Origin: a virus
Virus record (IMG/VR): IMGVR_UViG_3300032282_002691
Span: 1 to 24,529 of that record
Length of the DNA: 24,529 nucleotides
Direction: 5' to 3' (one strand)
Made by a program: the position numbers and the translations under genes. Position 1 is the first letter of the stretch, and every line of letters starts with the position of its first letter. The notes under the pieces were generated by a model. It was not told where the DNA came from. It saw nothing but the letters and a program-made list of their open reading frames with translations, and searched no databases. Positions 5,168 through 15,374 of this stretch are shown here, piece by piece.

Positions 5168-7951
5168 TCAGAACGGATCGCCGTCGTCGTCTGGCGGCGG
5201 CTTCGGCACCTGCGCCCCCTTCTTCGTCGCTGCAGCTGGCGACGTCACAGCGTCCGCCCACAAGAACTTCGACAGCGCCGCTTCGGTCAGCGAGTAGGCG
5301 CGGACCCGCCCGCCTGACATCGCGACCGTCTTCGACACCTTCGACCCGCTGCCGCCTTCGACCCACCCGCGCTCCGCCCAGGCTGACGTCACGGCGCCGA
5401 TCTGGAAGCCCGCAGTCTTCAGCATGTCGTTCGCTGCCGACAGCACCACCGCAAGGCGCGGCTGCCCGGTCGCGCTGCTATACCAGACGCCGATCAAGTC
5501 GCGGTTTGCCTTGTCGTTGTCGGGATGGCCTGACAGCTGCAGCGCCCGCGACAGCGACCAGTCGACCAGACGCGACAGCGCTGCCGTTGCCACGTCGGCA
5601 GGCCGTGATCGCTGCATCATGTCTGCCCACCGCTCGGCAGTCACCCACCCGTCGCGCGCACGCAGGCCTAGCACCTGATCGGCGACTTCGCCCACCACCC
5701 GCACGAACGCCACGTACTCGGCAAGGCGCGACCCGATCGGGTGACCGGGGCTAGTGGCTTCGACCTCGGCTGACGCCGCGTTGCACAAGGTGCGGTACCT
5801 GGCACGCAGGTCGCGGCGCTCTTCGGTCGTCAGGCCTGCCACGTACCCGGCGAAGATGCGCCCCGCGTGACCGTGGTTGTCGGTCAGCGTGTCGATGACG
5901 TCGCGCTGAAAGGCTGCAGTGGCGTCGCTGACGCGCTGCGCGGCACTACCCCGCGACCACGGCGGCCCCCACATCGTCAGCACCCGCGCACGCGCGCCAC
6001 CGGCTTCGCCGAAGTCGCTGATCGACTGCTCGCCCGTCGACAGCACAAGCGATTCGTACCGCGACGTCGCACGAACCCCGCCCGCCTGCGCGCCCCTCAT
6101 CTTGCCGGTGTCGGTCGTCAGGTCGTACACGGTCTTCTGCACCGCTTCGACCTTCGCCCGCTGTGTCTCGTCGATGCAGACCGACAGCCCCCGCACCGCG
6201 TTCACGTGCAGTTCTAGCGCGTAGGGCGTCGAATCCCACGACAGCACCGCGTCAGTCGACCCGCCGACACTGGCGGCCACCCGCAGCGCCTTCGTCTTGC
6301 CCTGCGACGTGCCGCTGCAGATGTCGAGCACGAACGGCTGCGCGCCGAGCACCCGAAGCAGCGGCGACCCCATCGACACCGCGATCACTGTCGCAAGGTC
6401 GGGGCTGTGGTCGATCACCCGCTGAAGCGCCCGCAGCTGCAGGTCAGCCGACCCGCTGGTCGAGTAGCGCCCGACCCACTTCGACAGCGCCGCGTTCGAT
6501 GCTTCGAAGTGCGGGCAGTTCACGCCGAACCGGTCACGACCGAAGAGGAAGGCAGGCGCCTGCCAGTCGTCAGCGCCGTGCCAACCCGTCACGCTGCTGA
6601 CGAACTCTGCCTCTGCCCTGGCGTTCTGCTGCAGGTAGGCTGTCTCTGCCGCGCTCAAGTACTCGACCACCGCTGCAGCCGTGCCGGTGTCGACAGGGAA
6701 GCCACCCGACTGCAGGTCGACCACCTTGCGCGAGTTCAGCAGCACCGATCGGTCGACCGTCTTCTGCCGCACGTCGAACCCGTCGGCGCCGTTCGGGCGA
6801 TGCCATCGCACGACCAGCGCGTGCGTATCGTCGCTGCTGTCGACCCGAACCCCTGCCACCCACAACGGCACCCGCGACACAAGCCACGACTGGTCGCCCG
6901 CCGACTTCGTCACGCCCCTGTCGGGCGTGCAGGCGAACGGCTTCGGCGCCCACATCGCCCCATCGTCAGGCGGGGCCGCGACGCTGTCGTCGTCAGCCGC
7001 TTCGACCACGTTCGGCTTCAACGCTGCCTGCAGCTGCAGCCGCACCGTTTCAACGCCCACCTGGCACACAAGATCATTCCAGTCGCTGCCACGGTTGACG
7101 AAGCCCGGCGGCCACACTGGCACCACCGCCACGCCTCCGCACTTGCCTGCCGCCTCTTCGCCCTTGATCTTGCCGGGGTTCTTCGCCTTCTGCTTCCAGT
7201 CGTCATCGCAGCAGACGACAAGGCGCACGTCAGGGTACTTCGCCCGCAGCGCCTGCGTGACAGGCAGCAGGTTGCCGCAGTCGAACGCCACCGCCACCGG
7301 CCACCCTGTCGCCTCATGCACGCTGGCACCCGTCGCGTACCCTTCGACGATGGCAAGTACCTGGTCGTCGCCGAACTTGCCGAAGCTGTGATAGCAGCCC
7401 GTCACAGCGACGCCCTTGCCGAAGCGCTTGTCGGTGCCGTCTTCTGCCTTCTCGGCGAAGATCGTCTGCAGCCCCCGCAGAACCCCTGCCGAGTTCCGCA
7501 GCGGCACTAGCAGGCGGTCGCCGTCACGACGCAGCCCGTGGGCCGCAACCCGCTTGCGCTGCAGGTAGGCGTGACCGGTGCAGTCACGCCCTGCCGCCTC
7601 CCACTGCGCCGTCGCGCTGGTCGCTGCCAAGTTCGCGGCCGCCTCCCGTGCCTTCGCCCGGCGGTTGCCGTCTGCCTTGATCTTGGCGTTCAGCGCGTCA
7701 AGGTCGACCACCGACAACGACACCCCGCCCCACTGCCACGTCTGCGACCCCTGCCCGTCTCCCATGTTTTCGATGTAGCCTGCGGGCTTCGCGTCAAGGT
7801 GCAGCGTGTACCGCCCGTTCTTCGACTTCGGCTTGTCGTGCGTCGGCAGGTGGTGAATCTGACCGTCGGCGATCAGGGCAGCCGGGGCGATGATGCCGCG
7901 CGCCTCCAGTGCTGCCCGAAACTCGGCTTCTACCTTTGCAAAATCGCTCAC
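5168..7951 (-). CDS. Primase-helicase: Toprim plus DUF927 ATPase
   Basis: 927 residues. A Toprim domain is visible: VEGYATGASV with Glu203, and LVVCCDDDWKQ with Asp249-251, the metal-binding positions for primer synthesis. From about 340 on the protein matches DUF927: RDRFGVNCPH, then Walker A SGTSQGKTKALRVAASVGG (546-564) and Walker B-like GLSVCIDET with Asp594/Glu595. Such proteins are single-chain phage or plasmid replication primase-helicases. No CHC2 zinc-finger cysteines appear in the N-terminus. GTG at 7951 overlaps the helicase stop as GTGA and follows a perfect AGGAGG. The C-terminal 150 residues may be a helical DNA-binding part, ending in an acidic PPPDDDGDPF tail. Confidence 0.9.
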   Translation of the reverse strand: MSDFAKVEAEFRAALEARGIIAPAALIADGQIHHLPTHDKPKSKNGRYTLHLDAKPAGYIENMGDGQGSQTWQWGGVSLSVVDLDALNAKIKADGNRRAKAREAAANLAATSATAQWEAAGRDCTGHAYLQRKRVAAHGLRRDGDRLLVPLRNSAGVLRGLQTIFAEKAEDGTDKRFGKGVAVTGCYHSFGKFGDDQVLAIVEGYATGASVHEATGWPVAVAFDCGNLLPVTQALRAKYPDVRLVVCCDDDWKQKAKNPGKIKGEEAAGKCGGVAVVPVWPPGFVNRGSDWNDLVCQVGVETVRLQLQAALKPNVVEAADDDSVAAPPDDGAMWAPKPFACTPDRGVTKSAGDQSWLVSRVPLWVAGVRVDSSDDTHALVVRWHRPNGADGFDVRQKTVDRSVLLNSRKVVDLQSGGFPVDTGTAAAVVEYLSAAETAYLQQNARAEAEFVSSVTGWHGADDWQAPAFLFGRDRFGVNCPHFEASNAALSKWVGRYSTSGSADLQLRALQRVIDHSPDLATVIAVSMGSPLLRVLGAQPFVLDICSGTSQGKTKALRVAASVGGSTDAVLSWDSTPYALELHVNAVRGLSVCIDETQRAKVEAVQKTVYDLTTDTGKMRGAQAGGVRATSRYESLVLSTGEQSISDFGEAGGARARVLTMWGPPWSRGSAAQRVSDATAAFQRDVIDTLTDNHGHAGRIFAGYVAGLTTEERRDLRARYRTLCNAASAEVEATSPGHPIGSRLAEYVAFVRVVGEVADQVLGLRARDGWVTAERWADMMQRSRPADVATAALSRLVDWSLSRALQLSGHPDNDKANRDLIGVWYSSATGQPRLAVVLSAANDMLKTAGFQIGAVTSAWAERGWVEGGSGSKVSKTVAMSGGRVRAYSLTEAALSKFLWADAVTSPAAATKKGAQVPKPPPDDDGDPF

Positions 7952-9660
7952 TTTGCCCTCCTGGCGTTCTTCGCGTCGACCGTTGCCGCGATCACCGCGT
8001 CGCTGTCAACGGGGCAGTCGAACAGCGCCGCGATCGTCTGGTTCTGCGTCGTCAGGTCGTAGACGCCCGGTTCGATGAAGCGAGGCGTCAGCGCCTTGTC
8101 GAGTGACAGGAAGTCGGTCAGGATGCCGCGCCGCAGCGTCGGTTCGCCCTGCACGGTCGTATGTTCGTGCAGTAGCAGGTCGTACGCGTGCGCGATCGCC
8201 TTCGCTACCTGTTCGGGGCGCTGCTTGATGTTCTTGTAGCGCGCCGCCCGACCCGCCAGCAGGTCAAGCTGTGCCTTCGTCGCAGGCTGCCGACGCCACG
8301 ACGCGTCGATCTGACCGAAGGCATTGTCGATCAGCCCCTTCGCCCGCAGCCAACTGACGCACTCGCTGATGTAGGAAGTCGACACCGCGTGGGCGACTGC
8401 GACCCGCTGCACTGCCGTCCGCGCCTTCGACAACTTCGGCACCCGGTACGTTTTGCCCGTCAGCGGATCGAACACGTCGATCATGTCAGGCGCCTGTACT
8501 TCCTCTTCGACCTCTTCGACCGCGTCGACAATCGCCCCTGCCAGCTGCGACGGGTGGCTGATGCCGTGCTGCACGAACAGGCCGTACGGGTCGAACAGGT
8601 CGGCGTGCGACTTGCCTGGCGACGACCGCAAGAAGCGCCCGACCTCCTGCACGAACCCCACCCGACCACGCGGACGGCGAAGGCAGCCCCACCGCAGCCA
8701 CGGCAGGTCGACACCTTCGACAAGGATCTGCACGTGCACAAGGCAGTCGATCACGCCATCCTGCAGCGCCTGCAGTCGCGCCGCCCGAATCGCTGACGAC
8801 TGGTTCGAATGCAACGTCATCGCACGAACACCGGCGTCTTCTAGCCGCTTCGCGAACGCCTCGGCGTCGACCACGTGCCGAGCGCTGACGACACCGGGGC
8901 CGCGCTGCTGCTGCACCCACAGAACCGACGCTGCGTCGATGATCTCCTGCTGCTCTTCGGCGATGTCGTCACGTTCGGGGTCGTCGGGCTTCAGCCTGCC
9001 CGCGTAGCTTGCCATGTCGTTGATCCGCATCGCATCGAACCTGCCAAGCCCTGACGCCACCCACGGCACTAGCACCCCGTCGGCAAGCGCGTCGTCGATG
9101 CTGTACCTGTCGAGTTCGTGCAGCCACAACGTCAGCCCCTTCGACGGGTCGGGGTCGGACTTGTAGGGCGTCGCCGACCACCCGATTCGCGGCACCTCGG
9201 CGATCGTCGCTGCAGGCTGCAGGATCTGCGGGTTGTCGGTCTTGTGGCATTCGTCCGCGCACCACACCACCACCCGGCGCCCTGCCTTCGCCAGTGCCGT
9301 CAGACAGGCGCCGAACGACGGGTGACAGGTGACGACCACCCGCTGCGACACGTCTTTGCCGCTGGTGTAGAACACGCCCACCGATTCGCCCAGGCGGTCG
9401 GTCAACGTCGCTGACAGCTGTTCGACCAGTTTGACCGTCGGCGTCGTCACGACCACCACGTCGGCAGGGCCGGTCAGCAGCTGCAGCTGGTCGGCGACAA
9501 CCTCGGCAAGCAGGATCGACTTGCCCGACCCCGTCGCTGCAGCGAACACGCCCGCCGACAGCGACCCGGCGTCACGCGCTGCCACGTATGCGGCAAAGGC
9601 TTCGACCTGGCACCGGCGCGGCACCCGACCCGACCACAGCGACACACTCGGCGAACTCAC
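7948..9660 (-). CDS. SF2 DExH-type DNA helicase
   Basis: 570 residues. Motif I AATGSGKS (41-48), motif Ia-like VVTTPTVKLVEQL, motif II DECH (136-139), motif III GWSATP (160-165), and motif VI QEVGRFLRSS (338-347) are in the order of superfamily 2 helicases of the RecQ/UvrB-like phage group. It probably unwinds DNA for the adjacent primase or for recombination. After about residue 400 there is an extra region with an HTH-like stretch (VAHAVSTSYISECVSWLRAKGLID) and basic helices. GTG start at 9660 overlaps the upstream stop as GTGA. The exact pathway cannot be fixed from sequence. Confidence 0.9.
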   Translation of the reverse strand: MSSPSVSLWSGRVPRRCQVEAFAAYVAARDAGSLSAGVFAAATGSGKSILLAEVVADQLQLLTGPADVVVVTTPTVKLVEQLSATLTDRLGESVGVFYTSGKDVSQRVVVTCHPSFGACLTALAKAGRRVVVWCADECHKTDNPQILQPAATIAEVPRIGWSATPYKSDPDPSKGLTLWLHELDRYSIDDALADGVLVPWVASGLGRFDAMRINDMASYAGRLKPDDPERDDIAEEQQEIIDAASVLWVQQQRGPGVVSARHVVDAEAFAKRLEDAGVRAMTLHSNQSSAIRAARLQALQDGVIDCLVHVQILVEGVDLPWLRWGCLRRPRGRVGFVQEVGRFLRSSPGKSHADLFDPYGLFVQHGISHPSQLAGAIVDAVEEVEEEVQAPDMIDVFDPLTGKTYRVPKLSKARTAVQRVAVAHAVSTSYISECVSWLRAKGLIDNAFGQIDASWRRQPATKAQLDLLAGRAARYKNIKQRPEQVAKAIAHAYDLLLHEHTTVQGEPTLRRGILTDFLSLDKALTPRFIEPGVYDLTTQNQTIAALFDCPVDSDAVIAATVDAKNARRAK

Positions 9661-9860
9661 GACGCACCCCGCAGGCTGTCGGTCGTCGCCTTCGCGGTCA
9701 CAAGGTCAGCGGCAAGCGCCACGATCCCGCGCTCGACTGCCAGCGCCATCGCCGCAGACAAGCTGCGACCGGTCAGTGCCGAGTAGGCGACAAGCGCTTC
9801 GTCGACGTGGGGGGGCAAAGTGGTGTCGCGACGGCGCGCACCCGCACTACTGCTAGACAT
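9657..9860 (-). CDS. Small ribbon-helix-helix-like protein
   Basis: 67 residues from ATG at 9860, preceded by AGGATCGATC. After a Ser/Arg-rich head (SSSSAGARRRDT) comes TTLPPHVDEALVAYSALTG then SLSAAMALAVERGIVALAADL: a short strand, helix, Gly turn, helix, the order seen in Arc/CopG ribbon-helix-helix repressors. Such dimers bind short 5-6 bp half-sites in tandem. It is the first gene of the minus operon and lies about 90 bp from the GTTACC site array at 9951-10215, so it is the best local candidate to bind the array and control itself. The fold is read by eye and not proven. Confidence 0.65.
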   Translation of the reverse strand: MSSSSAGARRRDTTLPPHVDEALVAYSALTGRSLSAAMALAVERGIVALAADLVTAKATTDSLRGAS

Positions 9861-9950: not shown

Positions 9951-10028
9951 GGTAACATCGGTAACATTTCGCCGTTACCGCTCGCACCCGCTTAGATCCT
10001 AGCGCAAACGAGGACAGTAACGGGTAAC
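9951..10028 (-). repeat. Left arm of palindromic array
   Basis: Read outward on the minus strand (from 10028) it aligns base by base with the right arm read on the plus strand: GTTACCCGTTAC, a few varied bases, TTTGCGC, AGATC, AAGCGG, TGCGA, GTAAC, GGCGAA, TGTTACCG and a last GTTACC, with a few 1-2 base gaps. The match beyond the short sites shows duplication of a longer module, not chance short repeats. Confidence 0.7.
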
Positions 10029-10139
10029 TGCAAAAAAACATAGAGACTAATACGCGCGAGCACTGTCGATGCTCACACTTCGATCTGAAGTTCGCCACTG
10101 ATCGATCGCTTCCCCTAGTAGGGTGTATCTCAAAACCCC

Positions 10140-10215
10140 GTTACCCGTTACCGCAGCCGTTTTTGCGCGTCAGATCAAGCGGTTGCGAGTAACTGGCGAA
10201 TGTTACCGCGTTACC
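10140..10215 (+). repeat. Right arm of palindromic array
   Basis: Homologous to 9951-10028 in inverted orientation and pointing toward the late operon. It carries five GTTAC sites: two tandem with 7-base period, one reversed, two with 8-base period. The gap of about 110 bp between arms holds the central palindrome. Confidence 0.7.
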
Positions 10216-10360: not shown

Positions 10361-10390
10361 TTGACGCAACGGCGATGCTAGGGCTAGGTG
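10361..10390 (+). promoter_or_regulatory. Candidate late promoter before terminase
   Basis: TTGACG (10361-10366), 18 bases, TAGGTG (10385-10390), pointing at the terminase genes. The -10 is poor, but the pair resembles the candidate at 5095-5124 in spacing and in a CTAG at the -10. The rest of 10272-10435 shows only G/C-rich sequence with several GTGAAG runs. Confidence 0.28.
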
Positions 10391-10435
10391 GGGGTCGAAC
10401 CGGGTGGTGAAGTCACGCGCGTGAAGGCTTCGGCG

Positions 10436-10891
10436 ATGTTCACGAAAGACCAGAAGATCGAGATGCAGCGACGGGCGTGGGAGATGCGTCTGCGCGGCGT
10501 GCAGCAGGTCGACATCGCCACCGAGCTGCAGGTGTCGCAGGGGTTCGTCAGCGGCCTGCTGAAGAAGGCGCGCGAAGAGATGATCGAGCAGAACCGGCTC
10601 GACGCTGGCACGGCGACGGGTGAGCAGGTCGGGCGGCTCGACAAGATGATCGTGGCGCTGACGCCTGCTGCCGAGGCTGGCGACGTGAAGGCGGTTCAGG
10701 CCTTGCTAGCGGTCGAAGACAGGCGGGCGAAGCTGCTAGGCCTTGACGCTGCCACCCGCAAGGCGGTCGACCTGACGACAGGCGGTGCGCCCCTGGCGTA
10801 CACGGTGCAGATCCCGGTGGTGCAGCGAATCGAGGGCGTTACGGCGCCGCCAGTGCCTGACGACGGCGCGGACGACGAGCAGCCCCTGTGA
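10436..10891 (+). CDS. Terminase small subunit
   Basis: 151 residues from ATG at 10436 with a GAAGG ribosome site 8 bases upstream; a GTG 48 bases earlier keeps the frame open but has no clear ribosome site. The N-terminal part holds an HTH: WEMRLRGVQQVDIATELQVSQGFVSGLLKKAREEM (about 15-49), typical of small terminases that bind the packaging site. The middle AGDVKAVQALLAVEDRRAKLLGLDA is also family-like, and the C-terminus is acidic. It directly precedes and overlaps (GTGA) the large subunit. It would recognise phage DNA and hand it to the motor. Confidence 0.82.
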   Translation: MFTKDQKIEMQRRAWEMRLRGVQQVDIATELQVSQGFVSGLLKKAREEMIEQNRLDAGTATGEQVGRLDKMIVALTPAAEAGDVKAVQALLAVEDRRAKLLGLDAATRKAVDLTTGGAPLAYTVQIPVVQRIEGVTAPPVPDDGADDEQPL

Positions 10892-12159
10892 CGGTAGCGG
10901 CGGGTGCCGTGCCGTTCGTGCTGCCTGCTCTGTACGCGAAGCAGCGGGCGGCGGTCTGCGACCCGCGCCGTGTGGTCTGCATCGAATCGACGACGAAGGC
11001 AGGCAAGACGCTAGGCTGCCTTGTGTGGCAGATCGGGCAGATGATGTCAGGGCCGCCCGACGCCGAGCACTGGTGGGTTGCGCCCGTCTACGAACAGTCG
11101 ATGATGGCGTACCGCCTGGCGTGGTCGCTGCTGCGCGGGCAGCCGGGCTTTCGGCAGGTGCTGTCAGAGCGGGCGATCGTCGGGCCGGGTGAGCGGCGCT
11201 GGTCGTTCAGGTCGGCAGACAAGCCCGACAACCTGTACGGGTCGGCGGTCAGCAGCGCGGTGCTAGACGAGGCGTCACGCATGAAAGACGACGCCGTTGA
11301 TGCGGTCTACAGCACGACGACGCGCACGCGGGGGCCGCTGCGGCTGATCGGCAACGTGCGGGGTCGGGCGAACCGGCACTACCAGTGGTCGCGCCGTGGC
11401 GAATCGGGTGAGGCAGGCTTCGGCTACCACCGCATCACGGCTGACGACGCGGTCGCTGCGGGTGTCTTCGACGCCGCCGACGTCGACATGGCACGGCGGT
11501 CGCTGCCTGACGCGATCTTCCGCGAGCTCTACTACTGCGAACCGGCTGACGACGGGGCAAACCCGTTCGGCATCGACGCGATCCGGTCGGCGTGCGAGTT
11601 GTGCAACGGCAAGGCGACAGGCGGGCAGGTCGCGGTGTGGGGGCTCGACATCGCCCGCAAGCGCGACTTCGCGGTGCTGATAGGGCTAGACCACGCGCGG
11701 CACGTCGCAGTGTTGCACCGCTGGCACGGGCTGTCGTACGGGGCGCTTGTCGACGCGGTGGTCGCAGCTGTCGGTCGCCAGTCGAAGGCCTGCGTCTTCT
11801 ACGACGCGACGGGTGTCGGCGACGCGGTGGGCGACCAACTTGTCACGGCGAAGGTCTGGTGTGAGCCCTTCATCTTCAGCAGCGCAAGCAAGCAGGGGTT
11901 GATGGAAGGGCTCGCCCTGGCACTGCAGCAGGGTCGAACGACGGTGCTCGACGGGCCGCACCGTGCCGAGCTGGAGGCGTTCGAATACGACGTCAAGGCG
12001 AACCGGGTCGTGTATGGGGCGCCGTCAGGGTCGCACGACGACACGGTGTGCGCGCACGCGCTGGCGTGGTATGGCGCCGAACGGATGGGCATTAGTCAAG
12101 CAGTTCGCCGGTTGCCGCTAGGGGCGCCGACGACTTCACGCAGGGATCGAACATGGTAA
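10888..12159 (+). CDS. Terminase large subunit
   Basis: 423 residues, GTG start inside the small-subunit stop. ATPase: Walker A STTKAGKT (34-41) and Walker B SAVLDEAS (123-130). Nuclease with RNase H-like fold: WGLDIARKRDFAVLIGLD with Asp254, ACVFYDATGVGD with Asp306, and GSHDDTVCAHALAW with Asp384/385. It packages DNA into proheads and cuts the concatemer. The length is short for the family (often 450-600) but all motifs are present. It overlaps the portal start by 7 bases. Whether packaging is cos or headful cannot be told by eye. Confidence 0.93.
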   Translation: MTVAAGAVPFVLPALYAKQRAAVCDPRRVVCIESTTKAGKTLGCLVWQIGQMMSGPPDAEHWWVAPVYEQSMMAYRLAWSLLRGQPGFRQVLSERAIVGPGERRWSFRSADKPDNLYGSAVSSAVLDEASRMKDDAVDAVYSTTTRTRGPLRLIGNVRGRANRHYQWSRRGESGEAGFGYHRITADDAVAAGVFDAADVDMARRSLPDAIFRELYYCEPADDGANPFGIDAIRSACELCNGKATGGQVAVWGLDIARKRDFAVLIGLDHARHVAVLHRWHGLSYGALVDAVVAAVGRQSKACVFYDATGVGDAVGDQLVTAKVWCEPFIFSSASKQGLMEGLALALQQGRTTVLDGPHRAELEAFEYDVKANRVVYGAPSGSHDDTVCAHALAWYGAERMGISQAVRRLPLGAPTTSRRDRTW

Positions 12160-15100
12160 GACCGATCGTCGACAGCCGGGGCAACGTCATCAGCGGGCAG
12201 CAGGTGGCAGAGCGCACGAACATCATCGGCGCGCGAAACTTCAGGGGCGGTCTGCCTGACGCTGACGCGAACCTGTCGTTCGTGCCTATGGATCGGCGCG
12301 GCGTCGCGGGCCTGCAGGGCAAGTTTCAGGAGATGATGCAGACGCACGTCGGCATCGCGGCGGCGGTCTATTGGGCGATCACGGAAGGCGCAGCGCTGCC
12401 GAAGGAGGTCGTCTGGCCGCACCGCGACAAGCCTGACGCTGACGCCGAGGCCTTCATGCGGTTGTGCGAATCTGCGGTCATCGACGACGCGGTCGTCTAC
12501 GACGGGATGATCGAAGGGCAGGCGGCGCTGTGGGCGTACCCTCTGCTTGACGCCTTCATGGGGTTCGGGTTGATGCTGCCGCGCATGATCGGCGACGGTG
12601 CGGTCGAGTGGTACCCGGTGGCGCACAACGCGGTCATGCTGTGGCGCCCGAACGGCTACCTGCTCGGCGGGGTTCGGTTCAGCACGCCGAACGGCTACGA
12701 CGACATCGACGCGATCGACCTGGTGCATACGGTTCACGGGTTCGCCGGGTCGGGCGAGTTCGAAGGGCGATCACTGCTGCGCGACTGCGTGCAGCCGTTC
12801 GAACTCTGGAAGCAGATCGCGGTCAACGCGGGCGTCTACAACCAGATGAGTTGGGGCTTCCTCGACATCGCCTATCAGCCGAACGCCAGCGACGACGACA
12901 TCGCGGCGTTCAACACGTTCGCGCAGCAGTTTCAGGACGGTCAGCGCAAGTACATCCTGCGCCCGCAGGCGGTCGAAGTCGACATGAAGTACCCGTCGGG
13001 GTCGCCGCCTGACGTCATCGCGCAGCTGGAGTACTGGGATCGGCAGATCGAGAAGAAGTTGAACGCACCGCTGGCGGGCATCAGTCAGTTCGGGTCGCGT
13101 GCGATGGCAGAGACGCTAGACGAAGCCGGGGGCCGCAAGGCGAAGGCGTGGCTCAACTCTGTGTTCGACCGGGCGTCGCGGGGGATGTTCCAGTGGCTCG
13201 CCCAGGCGGTCGGCTACGACGGCAAGCTGCCGCGCGTGCAGGTGCAGTCGGCAGAGATGACGACGGGGATCGGCGGGTGGACGGCGTACGTGCAGGGCGT
13301 GCAGTCGGGGCTGCTGTCGAAGGGGCCGGACGACGAAGCGTGGGGCCGTCGCGTGATCGGGGCGCCGGAACTTGCCGACGAACCGAAGATGACGGCAGAC
13401 AGCCCGTCGCCGCTGCAGGTTGCGAACGTGCAGGCGGTGCAGGCTCTGCTTGCGGCGCTGAAGCCGTCGCAGATGGCACCGACCCCGCTTGCCCCTGACG
13501 CGGTGGTGCTGCTGCTTCAGTCGGCGGGCGTCAGTGAGGTCAACGCGCGTGCGATGGTCGCGGCGCAGCTGGCAGTGCCTGACGCGGTCGCAGCGGCGCC
13601 CGTAGCAGGGCAGGAAGGCGGGGGCGCGGCACCTGCCGCTGCACCTGTCGCGGCAGAGGTCGGCACCCCTGCGCCGTCGACGCAGCCGCAGGTCGTGGTC
13701 GGCGGCAACATCGAAGTTCCAGCGGCGATCGGAGAGGCGGCAGCGTTCGCCCCGGTGAAGGCAGCGGGGGAGATGTCAGACCTGTCTGACGAAGTCGACA
13801 CGCAGCCGACTGCCGAGATGGCAACGGTCGCCGAGCGGGCGCTGACCTGGCGTGCAGAACACGGTCGGGGCGGCACGGCTGTCGGGGTGGCGCGTGCGCG
13901 TGACATCAAGAATCGCAAGGCGCTGTCAGAGCAGACGGTGCGACGCATGGCGTCGTACTTCGCCCGGCACGAAGTCGACAAGAAGGGCAAGGGGTTCGAC
14001 AGCGGCGGCGACGGCTACCCCTCGGCGGGTCGCATCGCGTGGGACTTGTGGGGCGGCGACGCGGGTGCGGACTGGTCGGCGCGCAAGGTCGAAGAGTTCG
14101 ATCGGTTGGCGGGCGACCTTGCCGACACGGCGGGGCTGCTGTCGGCGTCGCTGGCAGATCACCCCGACGTGGTGGTGCCTGACAGCGTGAAGGCTGCAGC
14201 TGCAGCGGCGCTTGCGGCGCACCGTGCGTCGAAGGCGAAGACCAGCGACAGCGGCGCCCTTGTCTACGCCCGCGACTTGGCGGCAGGCAAGCGCCTGGCA
14301 TGGGGTCGCGTGATGCGGCTTGCCGAGTACTTCCTGAAGCAGCACCCGCAGCACGTCGGCACGAAGGCCTACTTGGCGCACGGGCCGTCGTGGCACGCCT
14401 ACCAGTTGCGGGGCGGCGATGCTGCGCGGGCGTGGGTGCGGTCGCTGCTGACGTCGTACGCCAGCGGGGCGCATCAACGGGCTGCACGGCTTGCGGCGAT
14501 GGGCACCGGCACGGGCGACCTAGCAGACGGCGAACCCGACGGGGTGCTAGTGGTCGGTGCTGACGGTCGCGAGTTCGTGACGTATCGCACGCTGCGGCCC
14601 GAAGAGCAGGTCGTTGCGTGGGTGACGCTGGCAGAGGGTCGGCGCGACCTTGACGTCGAACTGTCGAAGAAGCTGGAGGCGATCAGCGCTCGGCACCGGG
14701 AAGCGGTCATCGAAGGCCTTGCCGACGGCTGGCAGTCGGGTGAGCGCGATCGGATCTGGTCGCAGTTCGTCGCCGAGTACCAGACGGCGCTGACAGAGGC
14801 TGCAGGCGCCCTTCGCGCTGACGTTGCGGCGACGGTGCTAGACGAGGCGCGGCGGGCTGCGCGCGGGGGTGCTATCGCGACGATCAGCATCGACAACGTG
14901 GCGGCCGGTCAGGCAGCGCTGGCGGCACGTGCTGACGAGCAGTTCGCACGGGCGGCGGCGATGACGCAGAAGGCGGGCGAAGTGATGGCGGACCGCGTGC
15001 AGGGCGAGGTCGAAAGTGCGATCCTCGGCGGCGCTGCGATGGAGGCCTTCGAATCGCGCATCACACCACTAGGCCTGCTGTCGTCGGGGCTAGAATCCCG

Positions 15101-15374
15101 CAACACGGTCGAAGGTGCGGCACGTGTCGCCGAGTACGCAAACACCCCGGCGGCGCTTGGGCTGATGCCGACAAAGGCGATCAGGTCGTCGATACCTGAC
15201 GGCAAGCGGTGCGATCACTGCAAAGCAATGGACGGCGACGAGGTCGACCTTGTCGGGGCTGACGGCGAACCCCTTGACGACTTGGAGTTGCCCCCGCTGC
15301 CCGACCCCGACTGCAAAGGCGGCGCGTCGCGGTGCCGGTGCGGTTGGTTCGTGATCTACGGCAAGATCGACTAG
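12153..15374 (+). CDS. Portal protein fused to MuF-like head protein
   Basis: 1073 residues. Residues 1 to about 420 look like a DUF935/Mu-type portal: FQEMMQTHVGIAAAVYWAITEGAALP, YLLGGVRFSTPNGYDDIDAIDLVHTVHG, GRSLLRDCVQPFELWK, WDRQIEKKLNAPLAGISQFGSRAMAETLDEAGGR. A low-complexity Ala/Pro linker follows (about 450-545). Two related modules come next (about 574-650 and 699-770). The end is MuF/SPP1 gp7-like: helical from about 820, then cysteines CDHCKAMDGDEVD (about 1020-1032) and CKGGASRCRCGWF (about 1054-1066). The portal is the DNA gate; MuF proteins bind it inside the head. ATG at 12153 overlaps the terminase stop and has AGGGATCGAAC upstream. Confidence 0.85.
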   Translation: MVRPIVDSRGNVISGQQVAERTNIIGARNFRGGLPDADANLSFVPMDRRGVAGLQGKFQEMMQTHVGIAAAVYWAITEGAALPKEVVWPHRDKPDADAEAFMRLCESAVIDDAVVYDGMIEGQAALWAYPLLDAFMGFGLMLPRMIGDGAVEWYPVAHNAVMLWRPNGYLLGGVRFSTPNGYDDIDAIDLVHTVHGFAGSGEFEGRSLLRDCVQPFELWKQIAVNAGVYNQMSWGFLDIAYQPNASDDDIAAFNTFAQQFQDGQRKYILRPQAVEVDMKYPSGSPPDVIAQLEYWDRQIEKKLNAPLAGISQFGSRAMAETLDEAGGRKAKAWLNSVFDRASRGMFQWLAQAVGYDGKLPRVQVQSAEMTTGIGGWTAYVQGVQSGLLSKGPDDEAWGRRVIGAPELADEPKMTADSPSPLQVANVQAVQALLAALKPSQMAPTPLAPDAVVLLLQSAGVSEVNARAMVAAQLAVPDAVAAAPVAGQEGGGAAPAAAPVAAEVGTPAPSTQPQVVVGGNIEVPAAIGEAAAFAPVKAAGEMSDLSDEVDTQPTAEMATVAERALTWRAEHGRGGTAVGVARARDIKNRKALSEQTVRRMASYFARHEVDKKGKGFDSGGDGYPSAGRIAWDLWGGDAGADWSARKVEEFDRLAGDLADTAGLLSASLADHPDVVVPDSVKAAAAAALAAHRASKAKTSDSGALVYARDLAAGKRLAWGRVMRLAEYFLKQHPQHVGTKAYLAHGPSWHAYQLRGGDAARAWVRSLLTSYASGAHQRAARLAAMGTGTGDLADGEPDGVLVVGADGREFVTYRTLRPEEQVVAWVTLAEGRRDLDVELSKKLEAISARHREAVIEGLADGWQSGERDRIWSQFVAEYQTALTEAAGALRADVAATVLDEARRAARGGAIATISIDNVAAGQAALAARADEQFARAAAMTQKAGEVMADRVQGEVESAILGGAAMEAFESRITPLGLLSSGLESRNTVEGAARVAEYANTPAALGLMPTKAIRSSIPDGKRCDHCKAMDGDEVDLVGADGEPLDDLELPPLPDPDCKGGASRCRCGWFVIYGKID

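Follow-up and report, generated by a model that had tools for sequence, protein, structure and literature searches.

The window analyzed here, a stretch of freshwater phage DNA of 24,529 nucleotides, carries at positions 9951 to 10215 a mirrored array of short repeated sites that is very probably a phage replication origin of the SaPI/PICI type, bound by the phage's own DUF927 primase-helicase, hereafter Rep. We read the array as an origin because of the homology of Rep to a satellite initiator, the conservation of arrays among related phages, the co-variation of the site class with Rep, and the presence of arrays beside rep genes elsewhere; the low G+C content of the array center and a GC-skew minimum within the array were also counted as support. 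A sequence-only reading of this segment had left the choice between a two-way control region and an origin with symmetric loading of one protein complex in two copies, and the comparative evidence favors the latter.

Anatomy of the array

The array comprises ten GTTAC/GTAAC sites, of which eight are full GTTACC/GGTAAC hexamers and two (at 10017 and 10189) match GTTAC only, so that an initial count of ten GTTACC sites was right as to number but slightly generous as to motif. With GGTAAC written as ">", the order of the sites is >> < >> | << > <<, an exact mirror centered at ~10084, with offsets of 0, 9, 28, 65, and 72 in the left arm and 194, 201, 237, 256, and 264 in the right. The site search delineated, on the left, an outer pair on the minus strand (9951–9965; GGTAAC at 9951–9956 and 9960–9965), a lone site of opposite orientation, GTTACC, on the plus strand (9974–9979), and an inner pair on the minus strand, GTAAC(G)GGTAAC (10017–10028), the perfect inverted partner of 10140–10151. 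The right arm consists of an inner pair on the plus strand, GTTACCCGTTACC (10140–10152), a lone GTAAC of opposite orientation on the minus strand (10189–10193), and an outer pair on the plus strand (10202–10215; GTTACC at 10202–10207 and 10210–10215). The paired elements pointed out earlier are all present, that of 9974–9979 with 10188–10193 matching in five of six positions.

Ten sites per 265 bp compare with no more than three in 300 Markov sequences of equal composition. A hexamer count of eight is by itself not rare in such G+C-rich DNA, with counts of up to 10 obtained in 40 Markov sequences, and for the window the best 7-mer count (five) does not exceed that in the rest of the window. 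Since some enriched-hexamer counts can be reached by chance in G+C-rich sequence, raw counts were not used as evidence, and the significance of the array rests on its symmetry and conservation. As had been proposed, the symmetry extends well beyond the sites: when 9951–10028 and 10140–10215 are aligned in inverted orientation, they are 77% identical (E 3.5e-6), and the alignment score of 58 was reached in none of 1,000 shuffles of all other bases that preserved the sites (maximum, 41).

The arms are separated by a center of 111 bp (10029–10139) with a G+C content of 49%, compared with 66% for the window, and a G+C content this low is found in only 0.23% of all window stretches of that length. 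What had been described as a perfect small palindrome within it, ACTTCGATCTGAAGT (10077–10091), actually consists of two inverted 5-bp repeats (ACTTC/GAAGT) separated by 5 nt; being imperfect and not kept in relatives, it was discarded as a functional element.

Arrays and site classes in related phages

A TerL search of viral contigs yielded 36 related loci. A GTTAC array occupies the same place in the near relatives L009, L010, L011, L014, and L015 and in the distant relatives L022–L028 (TerL, 77%), and the remaining relatives whose upstream sequence is long enough have an array of a different motif there. When aligned by orientation, the sites fall into four classes, namely, TGTTACC (A), TGGGAAC (B), TGGGAAG (C), and TGGGGCA (D); the GGTAAC of class A and GGGAAC run in opposite senses, in agreement with the alignment of TGTTACC with TGGGAAC. 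The four classes share a layout in outline, with an outer run of two to three sites, one reversed site, and an inner pair, which is followed by a center of ~85–130 bp and then by a more or less complete mirror image of these elements. In all relatives the array is located 5' of rep; in the window, it lies ~2 kb from rep, with two genes in between. The search of related phages that the sequence-only reading had recommended thus recovered the array at the same place with its outline layout kept, the site sequence changing by class.

Five larger genomes (G001–G005) each contain a single such array, with no other cluster of comparable size. The related genomes measure ~32–34 kb, and four of the five have terminal repeats of 123–141 bp, from which we conclude that these four are complete at 32–34 kb. 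Genomes of the family encode TerL and a MuF-like region, and an endolysin is found in G005, but PHROGs recognized no tail genes in them. The phages of this family would probably be helper-independent. The cumulative GC skew of the window is lowest at 10158, which falls within the array, so that the inflection suggested as a check is there, although divergent transcription alone could cause such a minimum. It lies in or near the array also in G002, G003, and G005, and elsewhere in G001 and G004. Because the minimum falls off the array in two of the five genomes and is confounded by gene direction, GC skew was rejected as proof of an origin.

Several further features of the relatives were observed. 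Most iterons of a given genome have identical flanks (GTAACAG in L010 and L023, GTAACAT in L022), and several genomes have arms that are alike outside the sites as well; these shared flanks and the likeness of the arms point to concerted evolution, perhaps gene conversion between the arms. Between the array and terS, L013 (420–1683) carries a ParB-like gene, recognized by eye and without a Pfam match, and a DNA modification gene of the Mom family (E 3.5e-44), and L016 has a ParB-like/methyltransferase-like open reading frame in the same location.

Rep and the other neighbors of the array

Leftward from the array, the window encodes, all on the minus strand, a 67-aa protein with a weak ribbon-helix-helix (RHH) match (9657–9860), a superfamily 2 (DEAD/ResIII) helicase (7948–9660), and Rep (5168–7951), followed by a YqaJ exonuclease and RecT. 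Rightward, on the plus strand, the late operon begins with a small HTH protein in the small terminase (terS) position (10388–10891), followed by TerL and by a very long (1073 aa) portal-like protein (12153–15374), the C-terminal domain of which is of the MuF type. The pair of RHH and superfamily 2 helicase genes (7948–9860) is an insertion between rep and the array that is confined to the window's clade.

Rep is a protein of 927 aa that combines a Toprim domain, a DUF927 helicase (Pfam, E 3e-26), and a C-terminal domain, and is a homolog of SaPIbov1 Rep over the helicase and the C terminus. Its profile matches SaPIbov1 Rep (8tch) with an E value of 1.2e-61 over columns 335–894, running through the C terminus, and SCCmec Cch (5dgk) with an E value of 1.9e-26; consistently, a Foldseek search of the PDB with the AlphaFold2 model of Rep (mean pLDDT 79) retrieved 8tch first (E 1e-22) and 5dgk next (E 1e-19). 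The winged-helix-like C-terminal domain (residues 787–898; 5258–5593, minus strand), which is apparent in the secondary structure of the model and is spanned by the 8tch profile alignment, is the proposed iteron-binding part. The Pfam domain HTH_56 ("Cch helix turn helix") scores above the cut-off at the Rep C terminus of L033, L041, and L017, and the Pfam scan did not detect it in the window's own Rep. In the D-class phages L033 (2087–4837) and L041 (1964–4609; both minus strand), the Rep N terminus is an AEP Prim-Pol, the others having Toprim; the helicase, the C terminus, and the array are kept in the D-class phages despite this replacement.

Arrays of the same kind are found just 3' of DUF927 rep genes in other genomes, those of a SaPI-like element and of full-size Firmicutes phages. 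In the SaPI-like PT1028, the Rep of which is nearly identical to the 8tch protein (1224 bits), nine AGTTCCC-type sites in the order <<< > << | > <, with a weaker >> beyond, lie directly 3' of the DUF927 gene, around a center of 16% G+C. THSA-485A has ten GGTAACC-type sites just 3' of rep, ordered >>> < >> | << > < around a center of 21% G+C. Also just 3' of rep are eleven GGGGAAC sites in phiAH14b, a GGTGAAA array in FP_Epona, and a GTAACA array in phiRg507T2 (phiRg507T2_3). Across these five loci, the most frequent 7-mer occurs 7–11 times in the 400 bp that follow rep, compared with a maximum of 3–5 elsewhere in each locus. In vB_Pae_U10, no array was found downstream of the rep gene, and Roseburia phage Jekyll has a marginal one there; the arrays of Klebsiella P12620-1 and of the Escherichia coli contig ECO95 differ in layout.

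The location of the window array between divergent operons would also suit a two-way operator through which a phage regulator, the 67-aa protein or another, switches the early and late operons, given that RHH proteins bind short repeated sites; both such a control region and this binding partner had been put forward at the outset. However, the RHH gene is absent from L022–L028, which carry the same GTTAC array, and this protein was accordingly dropped as the binder; being confined to the window's clade, neither it nor the superfamily 2 helicase can be the conserved binder. Furthermore, a scan for sigma-70 promoters and terminators between the divergent operons found no site resembling either, and arrays of this kind persist in PT1028 and THSA-485A, where there is no divergent operon and the array lies downstream of a co-directional gene. 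We therefore consider an operator of this sort very unlikely. The search for a host through TerL relatives in GTDB species genomes returned none.

The array neighbor common to all site classes is the primase-helicase. Class A forms one clade (100/100) in a tree built from the Rep helicase and C terminus, whereas the TerL tree groups the window's clade with class C and splits class A (0% of bootstraps, AU p 0.039). Sequence identities follow the same pattern: the window and the same-class L022 share 53% in the helicase and 49% in the C terminus, compared with 24–29% for other classes, whereas the N-terminal primase (33% to the same class versus 38% to class C) and TerL (77% versus 80%) are slightly closer to class C. 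The N-terminal primase and TerS trees do not reject a class A clade, so that the discrimination rests on the contrast between TerL and the Rep helicase and C terminus together with the identities. In these sequence comparisons, which cover few independent lineages, the site class of the window co-varies with the Rep helicase and C terminus and not with TerL, and Rep is likely the protein that binds the array.

The TerS data bear on another explanation, under which the small HTH terminase encoded just to the right of the array binds it as a packaging (pac/cos) site. TerS-type proteins with HTH domains often bind repeats near their own gene, every phage of the group has the array upstream of terS, and the TerS tree is compatible with a class A clade (AU p 0.34). 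Yet TerS identity to the window does not follow the class (43–46% for D-class phages versus 41% for the same-class L022); in L013, which has the same array and a TerL 99% identical, a Mom gene and another gene, ~1.4 kb in all, intervene between the array and terS; and in PT1028 and THSA-485A, this kind of array adjoins rep with no terS annotated beside it. TerS was accordingly rejected as the binder, and a packaging site is highly improbable. RHH proteins and short heptad repeats also occur in plasmid partition systems, which could cast the array as a partition centromere or, alternatively, as a cluster of sites for a host protein, such as a DnaA- or IHF-like one. However, the site sequence changes between relatives in step with the phage Rep, a pattern that a host protein would leave unexplained, and no ParA-like match was detected among the early and packaging proteins scanned; the probability of either version is close to nil.

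Relation to satellite origins and a proposed mechanism

The origins of PICIs always consist of two iteron sets flanking an A+T-rich region, an organization that was described in 2018 as unique, or exclusive, to these elements, and a plasmid with the replication region of the PICI EcCICFT073 was maintained in E. coli in an ori-dependent manner (PMC6092414). SaPI Rep recognizes its iteron origin with the C-terminal domain (PMC7581432). The window shares with these Rep-ori systems (SaPIbov1 Rep, 8tch; PT1028; Gram-negative PICIs, PMC6092414) a homologous DUF927 initiator helicase with a C-terminal DNA-binding domain and two iteron sets, here of five sites each, around an A+T-richer center, and the layout of PT1028, <<< > << | > < (>>), is close to that of classes B, C, and D. 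It differs from them in position: the SaPI origin is immediately 3' of rep, whereas the array of this family is 5' of rep, between divergent operons, and in the window's clade it is detached from rep by two genes in a G+C-rich genome. The genomes differ as well, PICIs being small, helper-dependent satellites without complete virion genes, in contrast to the ~32–34 kb genomes with a terminase and a MuF-type portal region described here. Thus, the kind of array is known, that of a PICI origin; new are its occurrence in complete phage-like genomes, its position 5' of rep, and the stability of its layout while the sites change.

Similarities to other systems are more partial. SCCmec Cch (5dgk) is likewise a DUF927 helicase with a C-terminal HTH, and Cch2, from another helicase family, binds short iterons through its C terminus (PMC7581432). 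The Cch2 origin, however, lacks mirrored arms and consists of just three direct iterons, located 3' of the gene. Another comparison is with the alpha protein of phage P4, which unites primase, helicase, and origin binding in a single polypeptide, carries an EGYATG motif of the Toprim primase type, and acts in a two-part arrangement of ori and crr. The EGYATG motif is present in Rep of the window, but the helicase family, DUF927 here, differs from that of alpha as far as tested.

By analogy with the SaPI and PICI systems, Rep would most likely bind the GTTACC iterons via its winged-helix-like C-terminal domain, assemble on both arms in mirror orientation, melt the A+T-richer center (10029–10139), and load as two helicase rings that move apart, with the fused Toprim domain priming, such that replication would be bidirectional. 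Rep bound at the array may, as pure conjecture, also repress the leftward early operon, which would make autoregulation a secondary role of the array. An A+T-rich center is clear in the window's clade, L041, PT1028, THSA-485A, and phiAH14b, but a comparison of base composition showed none in the B-class L030 and the D-class L033, suggesting that more than base composition may govern strand opening.

On balance, we lean toward the broader view that satellites did not invent the mirrored two-arm iteron origin, which would instead be an ancient module of phages with a DUF927 primase-helicase, spread from those of Firmicutes to G+C-rich freshwater phages. Its layout would be fixed by the assembly of two Rep rings, with the Rep C terminus and the iterons co-diverging as a specificity cassette that survives exchange of the primase (Toprim for AEP Prim-Pol). 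If so, satellites would share this origin with phages or have taken it from them, and distinct iterons would avoid cross-talk. The presence of such arrays beside the same kind of initiator in the window's family, THSA-485A, FP_Epona, and phiRg507T2 bears on the ancestry of satellite replicons, and the four site classes on a near-constant layout offer a natural series in which origin recognition by a self-loading helicase and the placement of two rings on DNA could be studied. Orientation relative to the center also varies among arrays: the GGTAAC/GGGGAAC-type iterons of the window, THSA-485A, and phiAH14b point opposite to the AGTTCCC/TGGGAA-type iterons of PT1028 and classes B–D.
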